A stretch of DNA of 32,367 bases from a virus, in the IMG/VR virus record IMGVR_UViG_3300036045_000047, positions 1-32,367 of that record; one strand, given 5' to 3'. The translations under genes and the position numbers were made by a program. Under the pieces are notes generated by a model. That model searched no databases and was not told the DNA's origin. It saw only the letters and a program-made list of their open reading frames with translations. Below, one piece after another: positions 5,365 through 20,508 of the stretch; position 1 is the stretch's first letter, and every line of letters starts with the position of its first letter.

Positions 5365-5916
5365 ATGGCCGGCTCCATCTACCTGATCACGAACAAGTTG
5401 AATGGGAACGTGTATGTCGGCAAGACGATGGTTTCTCCCCACGTCCGATGGTTGCACCATAACACCATGGCGCGACACGGAAGCCAAGCTCCGGTGCATG
5501 CCGCGATCCGGAAGTACGGGGCCGACAGCTTTAGCCTGACGGTTGTTGATGAGGCTGAGACCAGTCGGAGCCTGAACGCCAAGGAGCGACGCTACATCAA
5601 GATGTTCAAGCGTGAAGGCAGATCTTACAACGCCACCTTGGGCGGCGACGGGGTACTCGGGGCTGTGAGATCGGTTGAATCTTGCCTGAAGGCTTCGTTG
5701 GCCCTGAGCGGAGCCGGCGCCCAGCCTAAAACTCACGGGCACGCCCGGCCTAGCGCCAGAAAACCCGTCGTTGGGGTATCACTCCTCGACGGCCGTGAAG
5801 TTCGTTACGAGTTTAGTCGTCAGGCTCAGGCTGACGGCTTTTCTGCCTCTAAGGTGACGGAGTGCTGCTTGGGTCGACGTAAGGTCCATCGCGGTTTCCA
5901 GTGGAGGTACGCATGA
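5365..5916 (+). CDS. GIY-YIG homing endonuclease, free-standing
   Basis: This is a site-specific nuclease that promotes its own spread by cutting alleles lacking it. In the 183-residue protein, residues 4-20 give the degenerate GIY...YIG pair (SIYLIT ... VYVGKT). The catalytic Arg candidate is R28 in HVRW, and NAKERRYI supplies the Glu helix. The C-terminal 50 residues end in FSASKVTECCLGRRK...GFQWRY, which resembles the small DNA-binding repeat (IENR1/NUMOD type) of phage homing nucleases. No intron ends are visible. The gene stands between the minor head protein and the protease, and its stop overlaps the next start (ATGA), so it does not interrupt expression. Codon use is more AT-tolerant than in the head genes. 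A CCTAATCT motif lies directly upstream. Confidence 0.88.
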   Translation: MAGSIYLITNKLNGNVYVGKTMVSPHVRWLHHNTMARHGSQAPVHAAIRKYGADSFSLTVVDEAETSRSLNAKERRYIKMFKREGRSYNATLGGDGVLGAVRSVESCLKASLALSGAGAQPKTHGHARPSARKPVVGVSLLDGREVRYEFSRQAQADGFSASKVTECCLGRRKVHRGFQWRYA

Positions 5917-7577
5917 TCATTGACATGCCGATCACCACCCAGACCGTCGACAGTTCGGGTGAGATTCTTCACCTGAAGGGTTTGGACATCTCTGACTTCA
6001 ACGATGGCCGCGCGTTCGCCAACTTTGAGCACAACAATGATCACGCCGATAACATCGTAGGCAAGTTTGTGTTCGCTAAGAAGATTTTTAATTCTGGCGA
6101 CTGCGCTACCGAGCGTCAAAAGATGTACTGGGAGAAACTGCAGACCCCTTTCTTGTATGGGGTCTGCGAGCTGTTCGACCAGGAAGGCCATCCTGGCGCC
6201 GTAGCGATCGCAGCTATGATCAGGTACTTCGTGAAGCGCAAGGAACCCGTGATGGTCGGCGCCTCGATCGAAGGCCAGACCCTTGAGCGCAAGGATGGCG
6301 ACCTGCTGCGCACGGTTGGACGCCGTACCGCCCTGACTTTGCGGCCATGTAACAGGCAGTGTTGGACCGACTTCCTTGGGGAAGGCGAAGCCTCCGACAA
6401 GTTCATGAAATCCATGGAAGACGGGCTCGATCAAGAGCGCTTGGTGACCGTAGACTCCTCGATCGTCGAGGACATGGACACCGGCGATGTCGTCCAGGAC
6501 CTCAAGAAGGCGCTCGAGGCCCTCAACAAGACCCTGACGGCCGGCACCTACGCGGGGACCGCCCCCGAGGGGCTTACCGGTGGCGCCGCCCTTCAGGTCG
6601 AGGATCGTGGGCTCCGGAACCGTATGAAGGCCGTCTATCGGGACTGGGATCGCCGTCGACCGCTCCGCGAAGTCCTGAAGGCTGCGCTCCCGGACGTCGC
6701 CGACAGCTACGTGGACCACTTCGTCGATCTCACCCGGGATCTGGCCCTCAAGAAGGGGCTCCCCCACGAGAACCTCACCAGGGTGTCCGCCCAGCACTCC
6801 CTTGGGGCCGACGACAACGATGACCAGAAGAAGCTGCTCGAGGGGCTCTACTGGGACCAGTCGAAGCCCTTCCAGCCAAGCCATCCGCAGCACTCCGCCG
6901 AGATCCGCTCGCTACAGAACGATGCGGGAAAACGGGTCCTCGTGAAGCTCAACCGTGCCGCGCCGACCACCGCTAACCAGACCGCGACCGCGTATTATCG
7001 TCTCGCCAAGGACTTCTACGGGATGGGCGACCACGTCCCGGTCACTGCCCACTTCCGGCATGGTATGGTAAATGGTGGGATCCCCATGCAGGCCATCGAG
7101 TTCGTCGAGGGCGCCAAGACCCCGCTGGAGTCGTCGAAGATGATGCAGGATGCGTACATGAAGGCCCGTGAGGATGGCAGCATGCACAAGCTCGCCCTCA
7201 TGGACGCCATCAACGGTACAGCTGATCGACACGGCGGGAACATCATGATTCGGCCAGATGGCAAGTTGCTTCACATCGATAACGACGAGGGTATCTCTGA
7301 CATGCCGGTCGATCCCTCTTACCTGACGAGGTCGTACCTCGATAAGACCCAGCACTTTGACGGGATCGGGGAGGACACCTTACACCGCGATGCGGCTGAG
7401 TGGCTTGCCGGCCTCGATTGGCGTAAGCTTGCGGCTCACGCGCGGCGTCATGGGGTTGATCAGCCCACGATCAGCTCGATGGCTTCGAGGCTCGCGTTTC
7501 TGCAGCGTGCCGCCCGCCACGGGATGACGTTCCGGCAGATGTTCGATCACATGAAGGGCCAGGATCAGCTCGCATGA
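5913..7577 (+). CDS. Prohead protease fused to a PI3K/HipA-like kinase domain
   Basis: The 554-residue product has two parts. Residues 1-165 look like a phage head-maturation protease of the herpesvirus-assemblin fold: H40 in FEHNN and S118 in GASIEG, where G-x-SIEG is the usual nucleophile motif. Residues 197-230 repeat the N-terminal peptide of the major capsid protein. Residues about 330-500 resemble a protein/lipid-kinase-like fold: K345 in VLVKL, the catalytic loop D438-R-H-G-G-N443, and a metal motif HIDND with D456/D458. This pattern is close to PI3/4-kinases and HipA. Start ATG 5913 is chosen over GTG 5901 because GGAGG at 5903-5907 precedes it and ATGA overlaps the upstream stop. Base composition changes near 6480. 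The protease role is likely; kinase activity and its substrate are unproven. Confidence 0.8.
   Translation: MIIDMPITTQTVDSSGEILHLKGLDISDFNDGRAFANFEHNNDHADNIVGKFVFAKKIFNSGDCATERQKMYWEKLQTPFLYGVCELFDQEGHPGAVAIAAMIRYFVKRKEPVMVGASIEGQTLERKDGDLLRTVGRRTALTLRPCNRQCWTDFLGEGEASDKFMKSMEDGLDQERLVTVDSSIVEDMDTGDVVQDLKKALEALNKTLTAGTYAGTAPEGLTGGAALQVEDRGLRNRMKAVYRDWDRRRPLREVLKAALPDVADSYVDHFVDLTRDLALKKGLPHENLTRVSAQHSLGADDNDDQKKLLEGLYWDQSKPFQPSHPQHSAEIRSLQNDAGKRVLVKLNRAAPTTANQTATAYYRLAKDFYGMGDHVPVTAHFRHGMVNGGIPMQAIEFVEGAKTPLESSKMMQDAYMKAREDGSMHKLALMDAINGTADRHGGNIMIRPDGKLLHIDNDEGISDMPVDPSYLTRSYLDKTQHFDGIGEDTLHRDAAEWLAGLDWRKLAAHARRHGVDQPTISSMASRLAFLQRAARHGMTFRQMFDHMKGQDQLA
6501..6602 (+). other. Capsid-like 34-residue peptide inside the protease-kinase protein
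   Basis: Residues 197-230 match residues 5-38 of the major capsid protein at 25 of 34 positions without gaps. The core AGTYAGTAP is identical and is followed by LT, GAAL and VE. Synonymous codons differ throughout, so conservation is at the protein level. It is probably a shared scaffold-binding or cleavage segment. Confidence 0.8.
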
Positions 7578-8185
7578 TGCAGGTTTACGTCATCACCTCC
7601 GACGTCTCGTCGACCCCGCTCGCGGAGGTCCGTACAGACGGGAACCGCGTCGAGTTCATCGTCGACAACACCGACGGGGTCCTCCCCCAGGAGGTCGGCG
7701 GCAGCTACGAGCGGCTCATGAAGCTCGCGAACGGCTCGTCGCACATCAGGCTCCAGCAGCCCCAGAAGGCCACCGTCAACCTGATCCGCTACGTGATGGA
7801 CAACGGGGACGTCGTCGAGATCACGAGCGACGGCCGCACCTGCATGCTGAACGGCGAGCTGCTCGATGAGGCTCGCAAGAACGCTCTGTTCGTGGCGATC
7901 CGTCGCGGCGAGATCAAGGTGGCCAGGAAGGCTGACAAGCCGGTCCCGGTGATCCCGACGCAGCCGACCACCGCCCAGGCTGCTCCCGAGCCACCCCACC
8001 AGTCCCGAGAGGTGATCGGTCTCCTCGCGGACATGCACGCTCGTCAGAAGCAGATCGAGACCACGTACTCGGGCCGCAACGACCCCGCGATCGAGCAGGT
8101 CGACCGTAGCTACAGCGACGACCCGGCGTTCAGCAAGGCGATGGCCTACTATGCGAAGCATGGGACCGGAGGTGGTCGTGCCTGA
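7574..8185 (+). CDS. Hypothetical protein between protease and giant virion protein
   Basis: I do not recognise this 203-residue protein. The first 120 residues alternate strands and helices, with a repeated 'negotiated' pattern of short acidic turns (DGNRVEF, NGDVVEI, DGRTCML), suggesting a compact beta domain. Residues 125-150 are a Pro/Gln/Ala linker, and the tail is helical and polar. The start overlaps the upstream stop as ATGATG, and the end overlaps the start of the giant gene, so it is translationally coupled to both. A role in head assembly or in the function of the giant protein is inferred only from position. Confidence 0.75.
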   Translation: MMQVYVITSDVSSTPLAEVRTDGNRVEFIVDNTDGVLPQEVGGSYERLMKLANGSSHIRLQQPQKATVNLIRYVMDNGDVVEITSDGRTCMLNGELLDEARKNALFVAIRRGEIKVARKADKPVPVIPTQPTTAQAAPEPPHQSREVIGLLADMHARQKQIETTYSGRNDPAIEQVDRSYSDDPAFSKAMAYYAKHGTGGGRA

Positions 8186-11100
8186 CATGCCAAACCAAAC
8201 CCAGCAGCTCGAGCCCGTGACTCAGGACAACATGCTGGAGCATCCGGACACTCCTGCGCCCATGCTCCACGAGTGGATCAAGAACGCGGACTTCAGTGAT
8301 GGTGACGAGTCGTCAGAGAAGTTGATGGCGGCCGTCAAGCACCCGAACATTTCTACCGACGCCCTCAACCACCTGTACCAGCAGGTCAAGCCGCAGCAGA
8401 TGACGGCTGAGCCCAAGCGGGTCAAGTTCAAGCGCGACCACCACGAGAATCTCCTCCAAGAGGCCCTCAAGCATCCGAACTTCTCGGCCAGGGACGCTGA
8501 GGACCTGATCGCAACCCTCCACGGCAAGGAGGGGCGATGGGGCGAGAGCTTGGGAGATATCGTCGCGTCGGCCGCCAAGATCCCCGGGGTAGACCGGAAG
8601 GTTCTTCAGGAGTTGACCGAGCGCGGCATCGAGGATAACCAGCTCAAGCGCCAGGATTTCCAGACCGACCACGCCCAGAACCTAGACCCGTCCTACCTGC
8701 TCGGGCTGCTGCGCGGCGCGGGCCACTGGCAGCCCGTCACCGAGAACATGACGGAGGCTCAGAAGCGGTTCAACAACCGGGCAGGCAAGATCTACGACGT
8801 GGTCCAGCGCGGCCTCGCGAGCACGAACCTGCACACCCCCGAGAACACCGCCCAGGTGATCGCGGCCTTGCATGATCGGGTTCCTGGCGGGATCACGCCG
8901 TCGGAGCATCACCAGTTCTTCACCAACTACGTGCAGAACAACCCGCACCTTACTCATGACCAGCTCGAGAAGCTTTTCGTTGGGTCGAAGCCTGAGGACG
9001 AGGTTGGCCACAATCAGCACGACCTCCGTACCGCTATCTTGGGCCACAGGAACGTCGATCCCGGCTTCCTTGCTCGCGTGGCGACGGCTGCCAAGACTGA
9101 CCCGATGGTTCGCCAGTCTGGCCAGCATCACTATAGGTCTTTCGATGACCTGCGGGCGGAGGCGATCAAGCACCCAAGCTTCCCGGAGCAGACCAAGAAC
9201 AAGCTCGTCACGGCCGCGTCCAGCCCGGACAGCAAGCTCAGCGAGGACGTTATCGATGCCCTCATCGAGTCCCCGACGGTCACGGCCGACGATCGTCGCA
9301 AGATGTTCGCGGGTGGGGTTCGCAAGGTCCTGAACTCCAAGCAGGCCCCTCAAGACCTGATCGAGCAGGAGTTCGCGAGGAAGCGCGACGACTACCTGAA
9401 GAGCACCAACGACGCTCGTGACTTCCTCAGCATGCCGAACACCCCTGCGTCGGTGCTCCAGCAGCTGGTCAACCACAAGAACTTGAACGTCGCGTCCGAC
9501 GCTCTCCAGCACGGGAACGTCGACCGCTCGGTGGTGGACGCCGCGTTGGCCCGTAAGGCCAAGCAGGTCAACGAGGCAGCCGCCAAGCACCCGCTCGCGC
9601 CGGCCGACAAGGTCCTCGAGAACGTCCTGTCCGGGAAGACCTCCGCGCATGACCTACTGTTCGGCAGCAAGGAGAAGAAGCGCCGCAGCTGGCAGCGCCA
9701 GGAGGAGAAGCCTCAGTTCAACATGAGCGACGACGTCGCCCATAAGCTCCACGAGCGTTACCGGGGCTTCGACGACGAGCGTATCATCTCGACCGAGGGT
9801 AAGGGCGACAGCGCCTTCAACAAGTTCTTGAAGGTCAAGCACTTCCTTGCGACCAACCAGGAGGTACCCGGCTCCGTCCGAGCTGAGGCTGCCAAAGATC
9901 TGGCCGACAAGTACCAGCAGATCTCCCACGGGGAAGATCTAGGGATGGCGACCGGCCACACCGGCAACCTGGACAACGTGGTCCATAACTTGGCCGACAG
10001 CGGCAACGTGGACGCCCAGGAGGCGGTGCTCAAGACTGGCAACGTCCACCGGCTGAAGCTCGAGAGCCCGACCTATACTTCGAGCTTCATCGACAGGGCC
10101 GCCCAGGTTCTCGACGGTCCCGACGAGCACGACGAGCACGGTTCGATCGCCCACAAGATCATGAGCAACCCGAACTCCTCCGACGAGGCGTTCGAGAAGG
10201 CTGCGCTGAACCAAGGACTTCAGAAGGACCACAACAACTACGACGACCTCGTCGACAAGCGGATGGAAGGTAAGTCCGACGAGTACGTAGGCCAGTTCTT
10301 CAGCAAGCTGATGGCTCAGGGTACCTCGGGGGCCCACGAGCTGGTCGCGCGGTCCGCGTCCGCCCCGCTCGAAACCTGGGAGAAGGCGTGGCGCGCCCTT
10401 CCGGGGTCTGCCAAGGACGAGGTCGTGGGACAGTTCACCGAGCTGATGAACAGCCCCGAGATGAAGAATCGGGCGCTGTCCGGTATGTACGACTTCCGTC
10501 TCAGCGAGGACGATCGTGAGACCGCCGGCTATCGCCGGTACGACGACGTCAGGGATCCTCGTCGTGTACTCCATCGCCGCGCCTTGGCATCCTTGTCGCC
10601 CGAGGATCCAGAGGACATGGTGGCGGTCGACACCATGGTCCGACATCAGGCCCAGCTTCCGGATGATGACGAGGGCAGGCTGACTGGCAAGGACGTCGTG
10701 GACAGCCTGCAGGACGGTTTCTTCGAGCCGGCCGTGGTGCCCACGATGAACCAGAAGTTCTTCGGTGGTGACGAGCGTACGGCCCGAGAGTTTGGCGTCC
10801 CGTACGCTATGAAGGTCGCGAGCGACCAAGCAGGCAGCATTGGCCGCGACGCGCCCAACGCCATCCAGCAGCGCGAGCAGGTTGCCAAGCAGTTCATCGA
10901 GACCATCTCGACGTCTCCGGGCGGTTTTGAGAACCCCATGGCCCAGCAGAACGCGATCGCACAGCGCTGGCTGGACGTGATGGACGATGTCGACTTCCTT
11001 AAGAAGTTCAAAAACCTTCGGAACTTGAAGCTGTTCGACGGGCTGGCGAACCTCCAGGCCGCGCCCGAGTTGGCCACCAAGGTCAAGGACGTGGCGCTTC

Positions 11101-14100
11101 AGCATGGGCTCTTGTCGGACGAAGTGTCAGGCAACCTCTCGATCGAGGACCCGACCGAGTTCGGGTCGATCATGCGGTCCGCCTCCGGCAGCGACAAGGC
11201 CGGGGTCATGCAGAACACCATGGCGGTAGGTAGTGTTCATCCCGACGTGGTTAAGCTCGCGGCGGCGTACATGAGCGCCAAGAATCTCTTACCCGTCGAT
11301 CGCCTCAGGTCGTTCGGTCGTCATGGGGCCAACCGTACCCAGACACCTCCTGAGGAGCGCGCCGAGCAGCTCCAGCACGCCAAGGGTGTCATGGACAACT
11401 TCATGCGCCACGCGCTTGTTCACGACGACAGTAAGGCCGTCGGGACCGCCATCAGCAACCTCCTGAAGGATAGTGACGGTCCAGCTCAAGGTGGGTTCTA
11501 CAAGGACGAGATGCAGGACCTGGTCAACCACGCGGTGTCTAGGCTTATGCCGGAGCAGGCCGCCGACCCGCGCCGTGCGGTGCGGTCTCTCTTGAGCATC
11601 TACAACCAGGTCAACGAGAGCGATCGTGACAAGCTGCCCAAACAGCTCGTCTCGACCCTGGTTGGCAACGCCGTCCAGCAGAACGACGTGGGCCAGCTGG
11701 TCGAGATGTCCAAGCAGGGCATTGCTGATAAGCGAATTTACCAGGCGATCAAGAATAACCTGGCCAACCCGACTGCCATGACTGATGAGAACTTGGTTGA
11801 TGTGCAGTCGATGTCTCGAGACATGGACCCGAAGACGTTCCGGGCCGTCATGGACGAGTCGATCCACCGTGGCGCCAGCAACCCGACCCTTAAGGCTGCC
11901 ACGGTTCAGAATCTTGGAACTTCGACCCGGTCGGTCGGTGGCGCCTCCTCGAAGGAGGACCTGGCAGCCCATAAGCAGAACGATTACATCGTCACGAACC
12001 TGTTGGCCTACCAGGACGATCCCGTGGTCGGCGGTGCCGCAGTGGGGCACCTTTTGTACCAGATCGGGCCCGCCGCGACTGTCTCGGTAGAGCAGTCTCA
12101 AAGGATCTTCGCAGCGATCAGCAGGCCGGACGCCGAGGTGTCCGGTATGCTCGATGGCGGTCGGGTCAGGTCCGAATTGGCCAACGACCCGAAGACGATT
12201 GAAGCTGCTCAGGATGGTTGGCGCCTAGAGGCTTTGTCGAAGGCTGTCGATAAGTTCAACCCGGATACTGCCACGGTGGTCACCAACCGGGTCATGAACG
12301 CCACCCAGATGTCCCGCGAGGCCAAGGGTTGGTACGCCGCGCAGCTGATCCAGCATGACGGCATGAAGGCTGAGGACGTCACCAAGATGGCCCGGTCGGT
12401 TGGTCCGGACGCGATCCCGGAGACCATGAAGGAGATCTCGTCTCAGGCTGGCGAGGATGCTCCAGAGACCTCCCTTCATCATCTGGTCGACCCCGCCGTG
12501 GCTGACCTCCAAGAGTGGGTTGAGGGACGAAAAGGCATCTCAGCCGGCGGTCAGATGTACGATACCGACCACTGCGCCGCGATCCTCGGCCGGGTAAGCC
12601 CGCTGGTGGACGTCGTGCGCCGTTATGCCAGGGCAAACAACTACTCGAACGCTAGGGAGAAGAACGAGAAGATCGACATGATGACCGACCGCTGTCTCGG
12701 TGCGGTCAGCAAGGTCCTGGACGAGGCCGCCAAGCATGGCCAGACCTCACCGGTCGAGACCAAGACGGTTGTTAGGGTCGCGGGCGAGACGTTGAAGCAG
12801 CTCTTCTCCAAGAAGGGAGAGGCTGGCCGCGTATACACCGAGGACCAGTCCAAAGCTATCCTCGACGCGTTCTCCAAGACCAAGAGCTTCGGGGGCCTCC
12901 CTGCGACCGACGCTTCTGGCGGTCCGGTCAGCCCAGAGACACAGGCGGCGATCTTGGCCGGGTGGGTGCGGCAGGGTCGTACCTCGGACGAGTCGTGGCC
13001 TGAGATCCACGCCCAGCACCCCGAGATGGCTGTCGCGCTGTCGAACGCCAAGGACTATCCGGTCGCGGCCGTGGCGTCGATCGACATGGACCGCCTCATG
13101 GAGAGCGACCTGCCCCGCGACCATAACATCGGTGAGGTCTTGGATTCGGTCTTGGAGAACGCGGCCCCGTACGGTCGTTCCGAGCAGTATCCTCGGCTCC
13201 TCAAGAACGCCTTGGAGAGGGCCCAGAAGGGTAAGTCTGTTCTTGACTACGGGCACGCTCTCACCATCGCTCGTCACACGATCCGGTCGGCCCCCAACGG
13301 GGTGAGCGCGGAGCAGTTGATGGCCCTCGAACATGGGACCAGCCGGAACGATATGATGAACTCGAAGATCGTCCAGGATGCCATGATCGCTGGTGCCGGC
13401 GGCAAGGAGTACCTGGACCACGTCATGCGGTCGGCGAACGTGACGGTCTTGGAAGGTGAACCAGATCAGCGGCAAGCGCTCCTTGAGTCCGCAGCTACGT
13501 CCCCGCACCTGGACGAGAAGCATGCCAACGCCCTGATCGACGCCCATCTGGCCAGCCACGGCAGCATGAAGCGCGGGACCATCCTGGACAAGCTCTGCTC
13601 CAATCAGATGGCCCCGAAGTCTGCGCTCGAGCGACTCTACAGCTTGCACGAGAAGGGCGAGGTCGCGATCTTCGGGGCCGCCCTGAACAAGCTTGCGGCC
13701 AACGGAAACGTACCCCGCGAGGTGTTCGACAAGACCGCCGTAGCCCTTGACCTGCACGACGCCTCGGTCACCAAGCGCCAGCTCGACAATCCTTGTCTCA
13801 GGAACGGTTCCTTCGGGATCGACGCCTTCATGTCACTCCCGGACGCCCGGGACGTTCCCGAGAAGTTCCACCTTAACCAGCAGCAGGGCGCAGCCGGTGG
13901 AGCGGCTCCTGGCCGGGTCGACAAGAACAAGCTGATCGACAGCGCCAGGTATTCTGCCTCTCACGCGCGACTCCGCCAGGTGCTGACCAAGATCCCGGCA
14001 GAAGGTACCAGCTGGGTGGACTTCAAGCGGGCCAACAAGCAGATGGAGAGCTGGCCAGAGACCAGGAAGCTCTTCGAGGGCAAGATGGGGCCGGCCGACC

Positions 14101-14855
14101 GGGTCACCCCGGAGGACGTTGAGCGCACCATGCGCGCCTACCCCTCCAACGCGTTCGGGGTCACCTACACCGACTGGACCGGCGCGCAGCGCCACATGGA
14201 AAGCTCGAACGACGACAACTTCAACAACCTGGTCATGCAGCTGAACACCTCGGACGAGCTGCACCACGAGATGGCCAAGGATCCGAAGCTCTTCCAGTTC
14301 TTCCAGTTCGTCCAGGAGTCGGCCAACTACAGCTCTCACCCGGTCAACCCCCACTGCGTCGGCTGGACCCGTCTCGACGTGTCGGGCGGCAAGGAAGGCT
14401 GGGTCGTCGAGGAGTTCCAGTCTGACTTCAGCTCCCGGCTGCGCCAGGACGTCGAGAAGATCACGGTGGACGTCCAGAAGCGCCTACGCGAGGAGGCCGG
14501 GATCCACCTCACCCCCGAGGAGATTATCGACTACACCGGGAAGATAGAGAAGATCGTGTCTGGCTGGTACCACGCCGCGCTCCACGGGATCGAGGACCTG
14601 GCCAGGAAGCAGGGGGTCAAGAACCTCTACATCCACGGCCAGCACGTTCGGGCCAAGCTCTCCGGGATGAACACCGATCGCTCCTACCCGGTCAAGCTGA
14701 CCGAGATGTACCACAAGGAGCCTCCGAAGTTCGGCTACAAGGAGTGCCAGTATACCGATTACCCCAACTGGAGCAAGTCGATGGTCGAGGACATGAAGTC
14801 CCTCAGCCAGGACCCCAAGAAGAACGCTCTCCAGTGCTGGCGCAAGCGGCTCTGA
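8178..14855 (+). CDS. Giant virion-associated protein with HPN repeats and a C-terminal polyvalent-type domain
   Basis: The product is about 2225 residues from GTG 8178. I prefer that start because GGAGG at 8168-8172 is 5 nt away and it overlaps the upstream stop (GTGCCTGA); ATG 8151 and ATG 8187 are alternatives. The first 500 residues contain repeated helical units marked HPN/HPD/HPS (EHPDTP, KHPNIS, KHPNFS, KHPSFP), like HEAT or leucine-rich-variant repeats. The rest is mainly helical, without membrane segments. Near the C-terminus CVGWTRL is followed by VVEEFQSD (E2078-D2083) and then IEDLARKQGVKNLYIHG. This resembles the 'EIQSD' domain of large phage polyvalent proteins. No RNA polymerase or peptidoglycan hydrolase motifs were seen. 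An ejected internal protein or a large structural element is plausible; the function is unknown. Confidence 0.85.
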   Translation: MPDMPNQTQQLEPVTQDNMLEHPDTPAPMLHEWIKNADFSDGDESSEKLMAAVKHPNISTDALNHLYQQVKPQQMTAEPKRVKFKRDHHENLLQEALKHPNFSARDAEDLIATLHGKEGRWGESLGDIVASAAKIPGVDRKVLQELTERGIEDNQLKRQDFQTDHAQNLDPSYLLGLLRGAGHWQPVTENMTEAQKRFNNRAGKIYDVVQRGLASTNLHTPENTAQVIAALHDRVPGGITPSEHHQFFTNYVQNNPHLTHDQLEKLFVGSKPEDEVGHNQHDLRTAILGHRNVDPGFLARVATAAKTDPMVRQSGQHHYRSFDDLRAEAIKHPSFPEQTKNKLVTAASSPDSKLSEDVIDALIESPTVTADDRRKMFAGGVRKVLNSKQAPQDLIEQEFARKRDDYLKSTNDARDFLSMPNTPASVLQQLVNHKNLNVASDALQHGNVDRSVVDAALARKAKQVNEAAAKHPLAPADKVLENVLSGKTSAHDLLFGSKEKKRRSWQRQEEKPQFNMSDDVAHKLHERYRGFDDERIISTEGKGDSAFNKFLKVKHFLATNQEVPGSVRAEAAKDLADKYQQISHGEDLGMATGHTGNLDNVVHNLADSGNVDAQEAVLKTGNVHRLKLESPTYTSSFIDRAAQVLDGPDEHDEHGSIAHKIMSNPNSSDEAFEKAALNQGLQKDHNNYDDLVDKRMEGKSDEYVGQFFSKLMAQGTSGAHELVARSASAPLETWEKAWRALPGSAKDEVVGQFTELMNSPEMKNRALSGMYDFRLSEDDRETAGYRRYDDVRDPRRVLHRRALASLSPEDPEDMVAVDTMVRHQAQLPDDDEGRLTGKDVVDSLQDGFFEPAVVPTMNQKFFGGDERTAREFGVPYAMKVASDQAGSIGRDAPNAIQQREQVAKQFIETISTSPGGFENPMAQQNAIAQRWLDVMDDVDFLKKFKNLRNLKLFDGLANLQAAPELATKVKDVALQHGLLSDEVSGNLSIEDPTEFGSIMRSASGSDKAGVMQNTMAVGSVHPDVVKLAAAYMSAKNLLPVDRLRSFGRHGANRTQTPPEERAEQLQHAKGVMDNFMRHALVHDDSKAVGTAISNLLKDSDGPAQGGFYKDEMQDLVNHAVSRLMPEQAADPRRAVRSLLSIYNQVNESDRDKLPKQLVSTLVGNAVQQNDVGQLVEMSKQGIADKRIYQAIKNNLANPTAMTDENLVDVQSMSRDMDPKTFRAVMDESIHRGASNPTLKAATVQNLGTSTRSVGGASSKEDLAAHKQNDYIVTNLLAYQDDPVVGGAAVGHLLYQIGPAATVSVEQSQRIFAAISRPDAEVSGMLDGGRVRSELANDPKTIEAAQDGWRLEALSKAVDKFNPDTATVVTNRVMNATQMSREAKGWYAAQLIQHDGMKAEDVTKMARSVGPDAIPETMKEISSQAGEDAPETSLHHLVDPAVADLQEWVEGRKGISAGGQMYDTDHCAAILGRVSPLVDVVRRYARANNYSNAREKNEKIDMMTDRCLGAVSKVLDEAAKHGQTSPVETKTVVRVAGETLKQLFSKKGEAGRVYTEDQSKAILDAFSKTKSFGGLPATDASGGPVSPETQAAILAGWVRQGRTSDESWPEIHAQHPEMAVALSNAKDYPVAAVASIDMDRLMESDLPRDHNIGEVLDSVLENAAPYGRSEQYPRLLKNALERAQKGKSVLDYGHALTIARHTIRSAPNGVSAEQLMALEHGTSRNDMMNSKIVQDAMIAGAGGKEYLDHVMRSANVTVLEGEPDQRQALLESAATSPHLDEKHANALIDAHLASHGSMKRGTILDKLCSNQMAPKSALERLYSLHEKGEVAIFGAALNKLAANGNVPREVFDKTAVALDLHDASVTKRQLDNPCLRNGSFGIDAFMSLPDARDVPEKFHLNQQQGAAGGAAPGRVDKNKLIDSARYSASHARLRQVLTKIPAEGTSWVDFKRANKQMESWPETRKLFEGKMGPADRVTPEDVERTMRAYPSNAFGVTYTDWTGAQRHMESSNDDNFNNLVMQLNTSDELHHEMAKDPKLFQFFQFVQESANYSSHPVNPHCVGWTRLDVSGGKEGWVVEEFQSDFSSRLRQDVEKITVDVQKRLREEAGIHLTPEEIIDYTGKIEKIVSGWYHAALHGIEDLARKQGVKNLYIHGQHVRAKLSGMNTDRSYPVKLTEMYHKEPPKFGYKECQYTDYPNWSKSMVEDMKSLSQDPKKNALQCWRKRL

Positions 14856-15956: not shown

Positions 15957-16814
15957 ATGGGAGCAGCTGCTAAGAAACAGGTTGACCTCAACGACCAGGA
16001 GCTGGACGCGATCCTCGCGTCCGTCGAAGCTTCCCTGGAGAAGGCTGACAAGCTCGCGAAGAACCTTCCGAGCCAGCCGAACGGCGGTCAGCCGATGAAG
16101 AAGGACGACGAGCCGGGCGCCAAGAAGCCCGGTGAAGAAGATGCTCCCCCGGCCCCTCCGGCCGGCGACGAGCCGCCCGCCGACGGCGGAGCCCCCGATG
16201 CGGGCGCTCCTCCGGCCGATGCCGGCGCTCCCGACCAGGGCGCTCCCGCTCCGGGCGAAGGTGAGCTTGCCGGCGAGGCCGAGCAGCCCCTCAGCGACGA
16301 GGAGCTGGACCAGATCTACGGCTCCATGCAGCCCGAGGAGCTTCAGCGCCACTACATGGCGATCCGCGCTCACCTCGAGCAGGCCATGGGCGGAGCTTCC
16401 CCCGACCAGGGCGCCGCGCCTGCGGCTCCCCCGGCTGCCCCTCCGGCCGCTGCGGCTGCCATGGGCAAGTCCGAAGCTCCGGTCGCCGAGAACGAGGAGT
16501 TCAAGGCTCTGAAGGCGAAGAACGAGGAACTCGAGAAGGCCATCACGACCGCCGTCAAGGCCGTTGAGCTGGTCCTCCAGCCCGCCCGTAAGAGCGCGGC
16601 CGGTCTCGAGTTCGTGAAGAAGAACGAAGAACTCGAGGGCAAGGGGTCGGAAGACCTCGGAAAGCTCTCGAAGTCCGACATCGACGGTCGGATCCGTCAG
16701 ATCGGTGCAACCAACATGACGAAGTCCGAACGGGACACCGTCAACAACTACTTGCTCCATAACGAGGGCAAGGAACGAGTCCTGGACATCATCAAGTCCA
16801 AGGGAGGCAAGTAA
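15957..16814 (+). CDS. Putative scaffolding protein
   Basis: Scaffolding proteins template the prohead shell and are removed before or during DNA packaging. This 285-residue protein has the expected profile. It is hydrophilic, with a helical N-terminus (about residues 10-40) and a long disordered Pro/Ala/Gly/Asp region (about 45-110, with many GAP and PPA units). A second helix and an Ala/Pro linker follow, then a coiled-coil-like segment (about 178-225, rich in K, E and L) and a basic C-terminal helical domain. It lies directly upstream of the capsid gene, with 1 nt between its stop and the capsid ATG. GGGAG precedes its own start. The codon repetition in 16140-16450 is low complexity, not a tandem repeat. 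The assignment rests on composition and position. Confidence 0.7.
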   Translation: MGAAAKKQVDLNDQELDAILASVEASLEKADKLAKNLPSQPNGGQPMKKDDEPGAKKPGEEDAPPAPPAGDEPPADGGAPDAGAPPADAGAPDQGAPAPGEGELAGEAEQPLSDEELDQIYGSMQPEELQRHYMAIRAHLEQAMGGASPDQGAAPAAPPAAPPAAAAAMGKSEAPVAENEEFKALKAKNEELEKAITTAVKAVELVLQPARKSAAGLEFVKKNEELEGKGSEDLGKLSKSDIDGRIRQIGATNMTKSERDTVNNYLLHNEGKERVLDIIKSKGGK

Positions 16815-16815
16815 C

Positions 16816-18219
16816 ATGGGTAACGAACTCATCAAGACCCTGGAAACCTTGGTCAAGACGCTCGAAGCCGGGACGTACGCGGGTACGGCACCGGATCGGC
16901 TCACCCAGGGCGCAGCGCTCGGCGTGGAGAACCTCGAGACCGTGATGCAGAACGTCACGTTCGACGACTCGCACATCAAGCTCCAGAAGCTCTTCTCGGT
17001 CAAGAAGGCCAAGTCCCTTCTCGTCCAGTTCAACCGGCAGCTCAGCTACGGCCGGTTCGGCGGTTCGGCCCAGCGCGAAGGCGCGGTCGGCGACGTGGAT
17101 GTCGGCGACTACCTCCGGGCGACGGTTCCGATGTGCTTCTACAGCACCCTGAAGCGCGTCACGGTCGCGGCCGACATGGTCGAGACGTTCGACGGCAAGA
17201 AGGGCACGGACCGTGAAGCCGAGAACGCCGCGATCAAGCTCGCGGCCGACGTCGAGTTCGACTCGTTCAAGGGCAAGGCCGACTTCTCGAACGCGGGCGT
17301 CTTCGACGGCAACCCGATCGCGATCGCCGAGCTTCCGAACATCCTCGGGCTCGACCCGCAGGTCCGCATGTCCGACATCATGGCGTCCACCCAGGACCTC
17401 ATGTTCGCGGCCTACGGCTCCAGCCAGTCGGTGGTCCTCAACCAGAGCGGCGCTCTCGACCAGAACATCCTGGAAGACGCGGCCCTCCGGTCCCGCCTCA
17501 ACTTCGGCAAGGCCGAGCTGATGATGGTCGACCCCGTCATCCTCTCGGGCTACAACAAGCGCGTCCTCAACTACGGGAACAACACGATCCAGCGCATCAT
17601 CCTCGCTGGCTCGGCCCAGGATGCCTCCGGCGCCGACCTCCGTCGCCAGTGGGTCTCCAGCGGCACCGTGTCCCTCGAGGACTCGATGTTCCTCCGTGGC
17701 AAGTACACCCCGAACCGTCCGACGATCGGCGCCCCCGTGGCCCCGGCGGCGTCCGGCGCCCGCGCGGGCGGCTCCTCGGCCCTCCCGGCCCTGGGCACGG
17801 CCGTGTACCTCGTCTCGGCTGAGAACGAGCGCGGCGAAGGGATCGCGGCCTCGGCCTCCGTCTCCGGCATCCTGGCCGGCGACGAGGTGACGATCACGAT
17901 CACCCACCCGGGCGGCGCGACGCACTTCAACGTGTATCGCGGCGCGACGGCGGCCTCCGCGAAGTTCATCGGACGCGTCAAGAACGACGGCTCCGGCGCT
18001 TCGTTCATCGACCTGGGCAACAAGGCTCCTGGGTTCGTCACCGGGTACCTCATCCAGAAGGACACCTGGGGACTCCACGAGCTGGCTCCCTACAGCCGCC
18101 TCAAGCTGGCCATCAGCGACCTGAGCACCCCGGAAGCCCACTTCCGGTTCCTCACGCTCTGCGGATACCAGCCCCGCAAGAACGTCATCGTCGACAACCT
18201 CACGCACGACCGGTTCTAA
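16816..18219 (+). CDS. Major capsid protein with an Ig/FN3-like insertion
   Basis: This is the shell-forming protein, probably of the HK97 fold. The 467-residue product follows the scaffold candidate and has GGGAGG before its ATG. Residues 5-38 match a segment of the protease-kinase protein, so they are probably an assembly or delta peptide removed or recognised by the protease. The body contains the strand- and helix-rich core. Residues about 300-405 begin with an Ala/Gly/Pro linker and then show a fibronectin-III or Ig-like pattern (AVYLVSAENERGEG ... FNVYRG ... IDLG). This would be a surface decoration domain encoded within the capsid protein. The stop overlaps the convergent - strand gene by 3 bases, and a terminator lies 29 bp on. 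Confidence 0.88.
   Translation: MGNELIKTLETLVKTLEAGTYAGTAPDRLTQGAALGVENLETVMQNVTFDDSHIKLQKLFSVKKAKSLLVQFNRQLSYGRFGGSAQREGAVGDVDVGDYLRATVPMCFYSTLKRVTVAADMVETFDGKKGTDREAENAAIKLAADVEFDSFKGKADFSNAGVFDGNPIAIAELPNILGLDPQVRMSDIMASTQDLMFAAYGSSQSVVLNQSGALDQNILEDAALRSRLNFGKAELMMVDPVILSGYNKRVLNYGNNTIQRIILAGSAQDASGADLRRQWVSSGTVSLEDSMFLRGKYTPNRPTIGAPVAPAASGARAGGSSALPALGTAVYLVSAENERGEGIAASASVSGILAGDEVTITITHPGGATHFNVYRGATAASAKFIGRVKNDGSGASFIDLGNKAPGFVTGYLIQKDTWGLHELAPYSRLKLAISDLSTPEAHFRFLTLCGYQPRKNVIVDNLTHDRF
16828..16929 (+). other. N-terminal capsid peptide shared with the protease
   Basis: Capsid residues 5-38 correspond to protease residues 197-230 (25 of 34 identical). A predicted amphipathic helix (LIKTLETLVKTLE) precedes AGTYAGTAP and GAAL-x-VE. 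A maturation cut after the final VE would leave a mature capsid starting near residue 39; this is inference. Confidence 0.75.
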
Positions 18220-19851: not shown

Positions 19852-20508
19852 TTAGTTGGACGTGAAGGTCACGACGCGAAGCTTCGACCCGAGGCGGACC
19901 GCCAAGCGAGACCCGGAGATCTTGCTGGACCAGTCACCGTCGTTGAGCTGTTCGCTGCTGCCGTTGCAGCTCGACGAGCCGTAGTACAGCTTGTAGTCGT
20001 TGTTGTTGAACTTCTTGATCGACTGGCCGCCACCGATGCCGGTGCAGCTGGACGCGAACTCGAAGTCCTGCACGGTTCCGGAAGAGGCTCCTGCGGGTCC
20101 GGTCGGGCCGGTCGCTCCAGGGGCTCCATCGGTACCAGGCTGTCCGGCAGGTCCCTGCTCGCCGGTCTCGCCAGGAATCCCTTGCGGGCCAGGGGCTCCA
20201 TCGGCACCAGGCGCACCCGCCGCGCCGTTGCAGGCGAAGAGGCTGTTCTGGTACGCGTCACCCTCGCTGGCGGTGAGGCTTCCGTCGAGGTCGCTGTAGA
20301 TGTCGAGGCTGGTGCCGCCGACGCCGAAGCATTCGCATGATTCGGTCGAGAGGGTGCGGATCTCGGATACCAAGGACGCGCCCGTGGCGCCCGTGGGACC
20401 CTGTTCGCCCGGAGGGCCCTTGATGACGACGGTCGTGGACGGACCACCGCAGGCTGCCAGCGCGAGGCTGAGGGCCAGGATGGCGATGTTGATGATCTTG
20501 CTTCTCAT
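19852..20508 (-). CDS. Collagen-like lipoprotein
   Basis: The 218-residue product begins with a lipoprotein signal peptide and the lipobox LAAC (C20) followed by Gly, which favours outer-membrane sorting. A short Gly-X-Y run (residues 31-44) leads to a Cys-containing segment with SDLDGSLTASE, an EF-hand-like acidic loop, ending in ACNG. This pattern recurs in bacterial collagen-like lipoproteins. A second run of about 15 Gly-X-Y triplets follows, then a C-terminal domain with two cysteines. It probably forms a trimeric stalk on the cell surface. AGGAGA precedes the ATG, and a sigma70-like promoter lies upstream. A phage-encoded surface lipoprotein suggests superinfection exclusion or host conversion (inference). 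A tail fibre is unlikely because of the lipid anchor. Confidence 0.85.
   Translation of the reverse strand: MRSKIINIAILALSLALAACGGPSTTVVIKGPPGEQGPTGATGASLVSEIRTLSTESCECFGVGGTSLDIYSDLDGSLTASEGDAYQNSLFACNGAAGAPGADGAPGPQGIPGETGEQGPAGQPGTDGAPGATGPTGPAGASSGTVQDFEFASSCTGIGGGQSIKKFNNNDYKLYYGSSSCNGSSEQLNDGDWSSKISGSRLAVRLGSKLRVVTFTSN
20117..20211. repeat. Internal 72-nt duplication in the collagen segment
   Basis: A 23-nt stretch at 20117-20139 recurs at 20189-20211 with one mismatch, offset by 72 nt (eight Gly-X-Y triplets). It indicates slippage or duplication growth of the collagen repeat. Confidence 0.7.

Follow-up and report, generated by a model that had tools for sequence, protein, structure and literature searches.

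For many tailed phages, the route by which the prohead protease is recruited is still an open question, and the locus described here gives it a concrete form: what is a predicted prohead protease doing with a copy of the N-terminus of its own phage's major capsid protein (MCP)? The locus was analysed in a fragment of a virus record, a stretch of 32,367 nucleotides hereafter called the window. Capsid-targeting peptides have already been described, and so have prohead proteases that process themselves (PMC5694885). In the papers searched, no protease was reported to hold a coevolving copy of the MCP cleavage site and N-arm.

The protease, the capsid protein and their shared segment

The genes of the window follow one another in the order terminase, portal (2426; Pfam PF04860), protease (5913), a 2,234-aa protein, scaffold (15957) and MCP (16816); features below lie on the + strand unless marked otherwise. 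The protease gene (5913..7577) encodes a fusion protein of 554 aa, identified from its ORF, its structural model, a match to phrog_1028, head maturation protease (E=2.4e-4), and 39.7% identity to the putative prohead protease of Myxococcus phage Mx1; tblastn related it to SPO1 gp3.2 as well as to the Mx1 protease. The MCP (16816..18219; 467 aa) matched phrog_752 at E=2e-35 over residues 4-165, that is, with its N-arm included, was 52.4% identical to the Mx1 MCP and had PDB matches to SPO1 Gp6.1 and the Kayvirus MCP. NCBIfam searches with both proteins, and Pfam with the MCP, returned nothing useful. The ORF at 15957..16814 was considered a probable scaffold protein on the basis of its position, its composition and its five K-S dipeptides, where 1.2 are expected; it matched no Pfam, PHROGs or NCBIfam family.

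Several other features of the window were recorded. The 2,234-aa ORF between protease and scaffold (8151-14855) had no Pfam or PHROGs match, an ORF at 5365-5916 that overlaps the start of the protease by 4 bases reads like a GIY-YIG nuclease, possibly a homing endonuclease, and an ORF at 19852-20508 (-) contains collagen-like Gly-x-y repeats. The model of the MCP had a mean pLDDT of 41, and its sole confident part, residues 303-402 (about 17722-18021), is a beta-rich insert that matches phrog_19622 and looks like an inserted Ig-like domain.

The protease is laid out as a catalytic domain, a flexible linker, the capsid-arm copy, a helical domain and a kinase-like domain. The catalytic domain (residues about 1-144; 5913..6344) was delimited from an alignment of 17 proteases, in which His40 of an FEH motif and Ser118 of an SIEG motif are invariant, and from a confident block of the AlphaFold model built with 17 sequences. 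After this block, the model showed a disordered linker, a helix at residues 193-209, a disordered arm (pLDDT below 50 for residues 203-233), the helical domain and the kinase-like domain. The part of the helix comprising residues 193-206 (6489..6530), which ends at Lys206 and resembles MCP residues 1-14, was considered propeptide-like. It is followed by the capsid N-arm copy (residues 207-231; 6531..6605), located by sequence comparison, and by the helical domain (residues about 232-282; 6606..6758), defined from the model and by hhalign, which found it common to kinase-type and other IMG/VR proteases with a probability of 85%. A PI3/PI4-kinase-like domain (residues about 289-540; 6777..7532) completes the protein. 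It is a lineage-specific fusion, recognized by Pfam PF00454 at E=2.8e-7, above the cut-off, and by Foldseek matches to PI3K/PI4K with low overall TM.

Pairwise comparison of the two window proteins aligned protease residues 197-230, LKKALEALNKTLTAGTYAGTAPEGLTGGAALQVE, with MCP residues 5-38, LIKTLETLVKTLEAGTYAGTAPDRLTQGAALGVE (ORF 16816-18219), at 25 of 34 identical positions. Counting from the ATG at 5913 as residue 1, the protease segment is encoded by 6501-6602 and sits between the catalytic and helical domains. This was the top-scoring 34-residue stretch between the two proteins, with a score of 109 against a mean of 29 and a maximum of 48 in shuffles (z about 16), and a search within the same record found it at E = 3.5e-11. 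The match and the coordinates given in a previous sequence-only reading of the window were thus exact. That reading had also described the codons as diverged, and this was borne out, since within the element core the same codon was used at 7 of the 20 identical residues with synonymous choices, against 8.8 expected from codon usage.

Occurrence and covariation of the two copies

Relatives were collected through the MCP, which led to 27 viral contigs, 25 of them also with a protease match, and further ones came from searching with six kinase-type proteases. A scan for related loci with the window protease alone found no relatives, whereas the MCP and alignment queries did. Forty MCP-protease pairs were assembled, from 16 Herelleviridae-type phages, Mx1, the window and 22 IMG/VR phages. 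The closest named phage was Mx1 (52% for the MCP, 40% for the protease), then came Herelleviridae such as SPO1, whose MCPs are about 23-30% identical to that of the window. The sequence-only reading had proposed looking for the segment in related phages, and it was present in both proteins of all 40 pairs, covering the Mx1-like group and Herelleviridae that include SPO1, Kayvirus, Listeria and Enterococcus phages. For example, the element of Brochothrix phage A9 reads KSMTTGYNHGGTDQFNGQALRRQSL in its MCP and KSMTTGYEHGGTDQTDGSALRRQSL in its protease, and that of Mx1 reads KAMEAGNFNAKPSTLVQGSAMQ and KAMEAGNFNAAPSTLQGGSALQ, respectively. In wider tblastn searches, the N-terminus of the Kayvirus MCP gave 1,079 hits spread over 585 phage records, and the Kayvirus protease segment gave 1,110 hits over 576, a record typically having two. 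The capsid model phrog_752 itself matched the proteases of Kayvirus, SPO1 and A9, and did so precisely where the element lies.

Is the element a general packaging tag, present on several proteins? A profile of the element found MCP and protease in each of 26 whole records, and the best match among the other proteins of these records reached only E about 0.036. A general tag was therefore rejected, MCP and protease alone carrying the element in the 26 records. Outside the group, no segment common to MCP and protease was found in HK97, D3, T4 or the Bacteroidetes phages DAC19 and MA9V-3. In the last two, the MCP retains a K-A-M-x-A-G start and the protease has no copy, which hints, from these two phages only, that the MCP element may be older than the protease copy.

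The survey also brought some unusual cases. The protease of relative G020 (L041) holds two capsid-like elements. In L094 (CALMSM010000181.1), a contig from a related phage that had been binned with a Candidatus Saccharibacteria MAG, both elements read AGNYNAAP. Gene 205 of Bacillus phage 010DV005 (L067 2353-2919), like gene 205 of 010DV004, is a protease fragment whose annotation as major capsid protein probably stems from the shared element. Very long proteases of 612-1,239 aa (L060 11956-15675, L094 9989-13540, L025 5775-8156 and L015 6545-8380) hold large lineage-specific insertions or additions, such as DUF5661 in L015, as if the protein were a platform for fused domains.

We then compared the two copies within and between phages. 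MCP and protease elements of the same phage were alike at 15.4 of 27 positions and those of different phages at 10.2 of 27, and of 738 decided comparisons, 721 showed a poorer match once partners were swapped (721:17). The own-phage excess held within each of three groups. Because permutation p-values on the full set count related phages repeatedly, thinned sets give the safer figures: six phages with MCPs under 50% identical gave 15:0 (permutation p=0.0016), and independent sister pairs gave 13:2 with 5 ties. The covariation for which the sequence-only reading had suggested looking was therefore seen. The coupling spanned P1' to about P25' and faded beyond. A duplication followed by independent drift predicts equal similarity within and between phages, whereas own-phage similarity was higher; this indicated that the copies must have been coupled.

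A possibility was that this coupling had no function behind it and reflected a recent duplication, or conversion events recurring between the two genes, as gene conversion would also make own-phage copies more alike than cross-phage ones. As a matter of fact, identical residues over all pairs used the same codon 260 times out of 644, against 269.3 expected (z -0.78). Since same-codon use equals expectation, recent gene conversion fails to account for the match. The codon test refutes the recent form of conversion, as opposed to very old events, and the deep divergence of the group, all of whose phages have the element, also argues against such an origin, which we regard as extremely improbable.

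The predicted cleavage site and the arm behind it

The first Lys of the element is found in 40 of 40 MCPs and 38 of 40 proteases (K14 and K206 in the window), the protease P1 Lys being replaced in two lactobacillus phages, Lpa804 and SAC12B. The next residue is Ser, Ala or Thr, except for a Gly in one MCP; a hydrophobic residue and an arm that ends near x-G-A-A-L-x-x-E come after it. In the window and close relatives, a helix common to both proteins precedes the Lys. The capsid chains of PDB 9row, 9rox and 9roz, as read from the deposited chain sequences, begin at S25 of the 463-residue Kayvirus MCP, right after the homologous Lys24. The 468-aa chain deposited for SPO1 Gp6.1 has no visible trimming, and the accessible text of a MALDI paper on Kayvirus gives no MCP mass.

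By homology with the deposited Kayvirus chains, the cut probably lies at the start of the element, between K14 and T15 in the MCP and, at a conserved Lys, between K206 and T207 in the protease (6528..6533). Alignment to the Kayvirus MCP, whose deposited mature chain does not contain residues 1-24, would make window MCP residues 1-14 (16816..16857), ending at Lys14, a propeptide. Residues 15-38 (16858..16929), placed by homology and by the alignment of the element, are predicted to form an N-arm that should remain in the mature shell. The sequence-only reading had expected cuts near MCP residue 38 and protease residue 230. Because the Kayvirus chains begin directly after the homologous Lys, a cut near residues 38 and 230 is unlikely, and residues 15-38 would rather be a retained arm.

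If the protease cuts after Lys, its specificity might leave a trace in other substrates, and dipeptide composition offered a possible read-out. In 38 scaffold proteins, that of the window among them, K-S occurred 299 times against 113 expected, a 2.65-fold enrichment, whereas it was not enriched in MCPs (0.82-fold) and none of the other dipeptides tested in the 38 scaffolds exceeded 1.2-fold. The enrichment fits a protease that would cut after Lys and shred the scaffold at many places, a cleavage inferred here from composition. These scaffold sites have no arm behind them. Therefore, the arm seems dispensable for cutting, which leaves room for a second role.

The best explanation, and one that we consider fairly probable, is that the element combines a maturation and self-cleavage site with a mimic of the capsid arm that docks the protease in the prohead. 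The element would be a two-part capsid module, made of a cleavage site (Lys, then Ser, Ala or Thr, then a hydrophobic residue) and an N-terminal arm of ~25 residues, borne by the MCP at its N-terminus and by the protease behind its catalytic domain. The arm copy would occupy a site made for the MCP arm, on the shell lattice or on the scaffold, and the protease would thereby be brought into the prohead as a capsid mimic. Once there, it would cut the MCP after K14 and itself after K206, so that the MCP would shed a short propeptide and the catalytic domain would be released from the C-terminal part of the protease. Both products would then start with a near-identical arm, TLEAGTYAG... and TLTAGTYAG..., respectively. 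Of what the sequence-only reading had proposed, a capsid mimic with a capsid-like autocleavage site thus stands as the best reading of a universal and covarying element, with the position of the cut revised.

A rather unlikely account, yet a serious one, is that the arm acts in substrate recognition only, as an extended recognition sequence and perhaps a pseudo-substrate until assembly, with no docking to the shell. The copies would then covary because both must fit one groove. The element does start at the predicted scissile bond, P1'-P4' are coupled, and C-terminal autoprocessing is documented for the phiKZ and SPN3US prohead proteases (PMC5694885). However, coupling reaches about 25 residues beyond the bond, although a long substrate groove on the protease could also yield this range, the enriched K-S sites of the scaffold do without an arm, and the model gives the arm no confident place, leaving it disordered. 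We counted this predicted disorder in the isolated protease toward docking. Docking was thus favoured because of the 25-residue coupling, the arm-free scaffold sites, the restriction of the element to two proteins and the arm kept on the mature Kayvirus MCP. None of these points is decisive, and docking is the preferred of the two readings.

Another possibility was that both arms bind the scaffold, which would gather MCP and protease. Prohead assembly in related systems is scaffold-driven, and the only two proteins with the element are those that need recruitment. However, the Kayvirus arm is still part of the mature MCP, at a stage when no scaffold should be left, suggesting a lasting contact, and the C-terminal domain of the protease showed no relation to the C-terminus of the scaffold, with hhalign probabilities of 18% or less. 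These values led us to reject a scaffold-like origin of the protease C-terminus. A scaffold-binding tag is accordingly improbable in our view.

Fused domains and known systems

The sequence-only reading had also envisaged that the copy serves to hold the kinase domain to the shell. The domain lies C-terminal to the arm in the window, and would thus still be joined to it after the predicted cut. Yet the element comes without a kinase in SPO1, Kayvirus, Listeria phages and most IMG/VR relatives. The catalytic DRHxxN and DND motifs, kept in the window domain, are lost in two close relatives, G004 (L034) and G005 (L033). This indicated that some of these kinase-like domains are pseudokinases. Since most relatives lack the kinase and two close ones have lost its motifs, the kinase fails as a general explanation of the element, tethering is very improbable as the purpose of the copy, and the kinase is a lineage-specific passenger.

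What may happen to such passengers after the cut is a more tentative matter. The protease has been found in purified virions of the Herelleviridae fRuSau02 (PMC5618024), CKA15 (PMC12282133), Bc431v3 (PMC3601020) and JS1 (PMC12977511). A joint scenario, which we hold to be doubtful as a whole, is that the protease replaces an MCP N-arm on entry and that its C-terminal half, starting with the arm, stays docked as a low-copy internal protein. This half would carry the kinase-like or other fused domains, which would be packaged and possibly delivered into the host. In this scenario, as in the docking proposal itself, the cut position, self-cleavage, docking and retention of the C-terminal fragment are all inferred.

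Herelleviridae proteases (phrog_1028; SPO1 gp3.2, Kayvirus Pro and their Listeria counterparts) share with the window the gene order portal, protease, scaffold and MCP, the catalytic domain and an MCP-like element behind it. They differ in size, as they are about 250-275 aa long, whereas the window protease adds a helical domain of another family and the PI3/PI4-kinase-like domain. In herpesviruses, the protease has its tail in common with another assembly protein, the scaffold, and cuts itself near that segment. In contrast, the window protease shares its segment with the capsid protein, and relatedness to the scaffold was tested and not found.

The capsid targeting sequence (CTS) of the internal proteins of T4 is a short peptide by which passengers reach the inside of the prohead, and gp21 cuts it (PMC5694885). 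Likewise, the element is proposed to take a protein into the prohead and to be a cut site of the prohead protease. The CTS, however, is N-terminal, occurs on several cargo proteins and is removed by a cut after Glu, whereas the element is internal in the protease, restricted to protease and MCP and predicted to be cut after Lys, with the arm staying on the C-terminal product. No common segment of this kind was found between T4 gp21 and gp23. Removal by a prohead protease of its own C-terminal part, as proposed here, has counterparts in phiKZ and SPN3US, whose proteases nevertheless cut after Glu and for which the accessible text of PMC5694885 reports no copy of an MCP N-terminus. The HK97 and D3 proteases also remove an N-terminal extension of the MCP, and the HK97 gp4 and D3 proteases are present at low copy in Prohead I, with about 60 and 90 copies (PMC12749128). 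They differ by having no MCP-like segment and by an extension of about 102 residues that serves as scaffold.

The element is found throughout a family whose members are in intensive use, such as SPO1, Kayvirus and Listeria phages, and for these it names, to the residue, a candidate recruiting and self-cutting element. It also predicts the chemistry of cleavage, with Lys ahead of the cut and Ser, Ala or Thr behind it, and gives a possible cause for the annotation of some proteases of this family as major capsid protein. If the arm does dock, fusion behind it would be a natural way to load cargo into phage heads.
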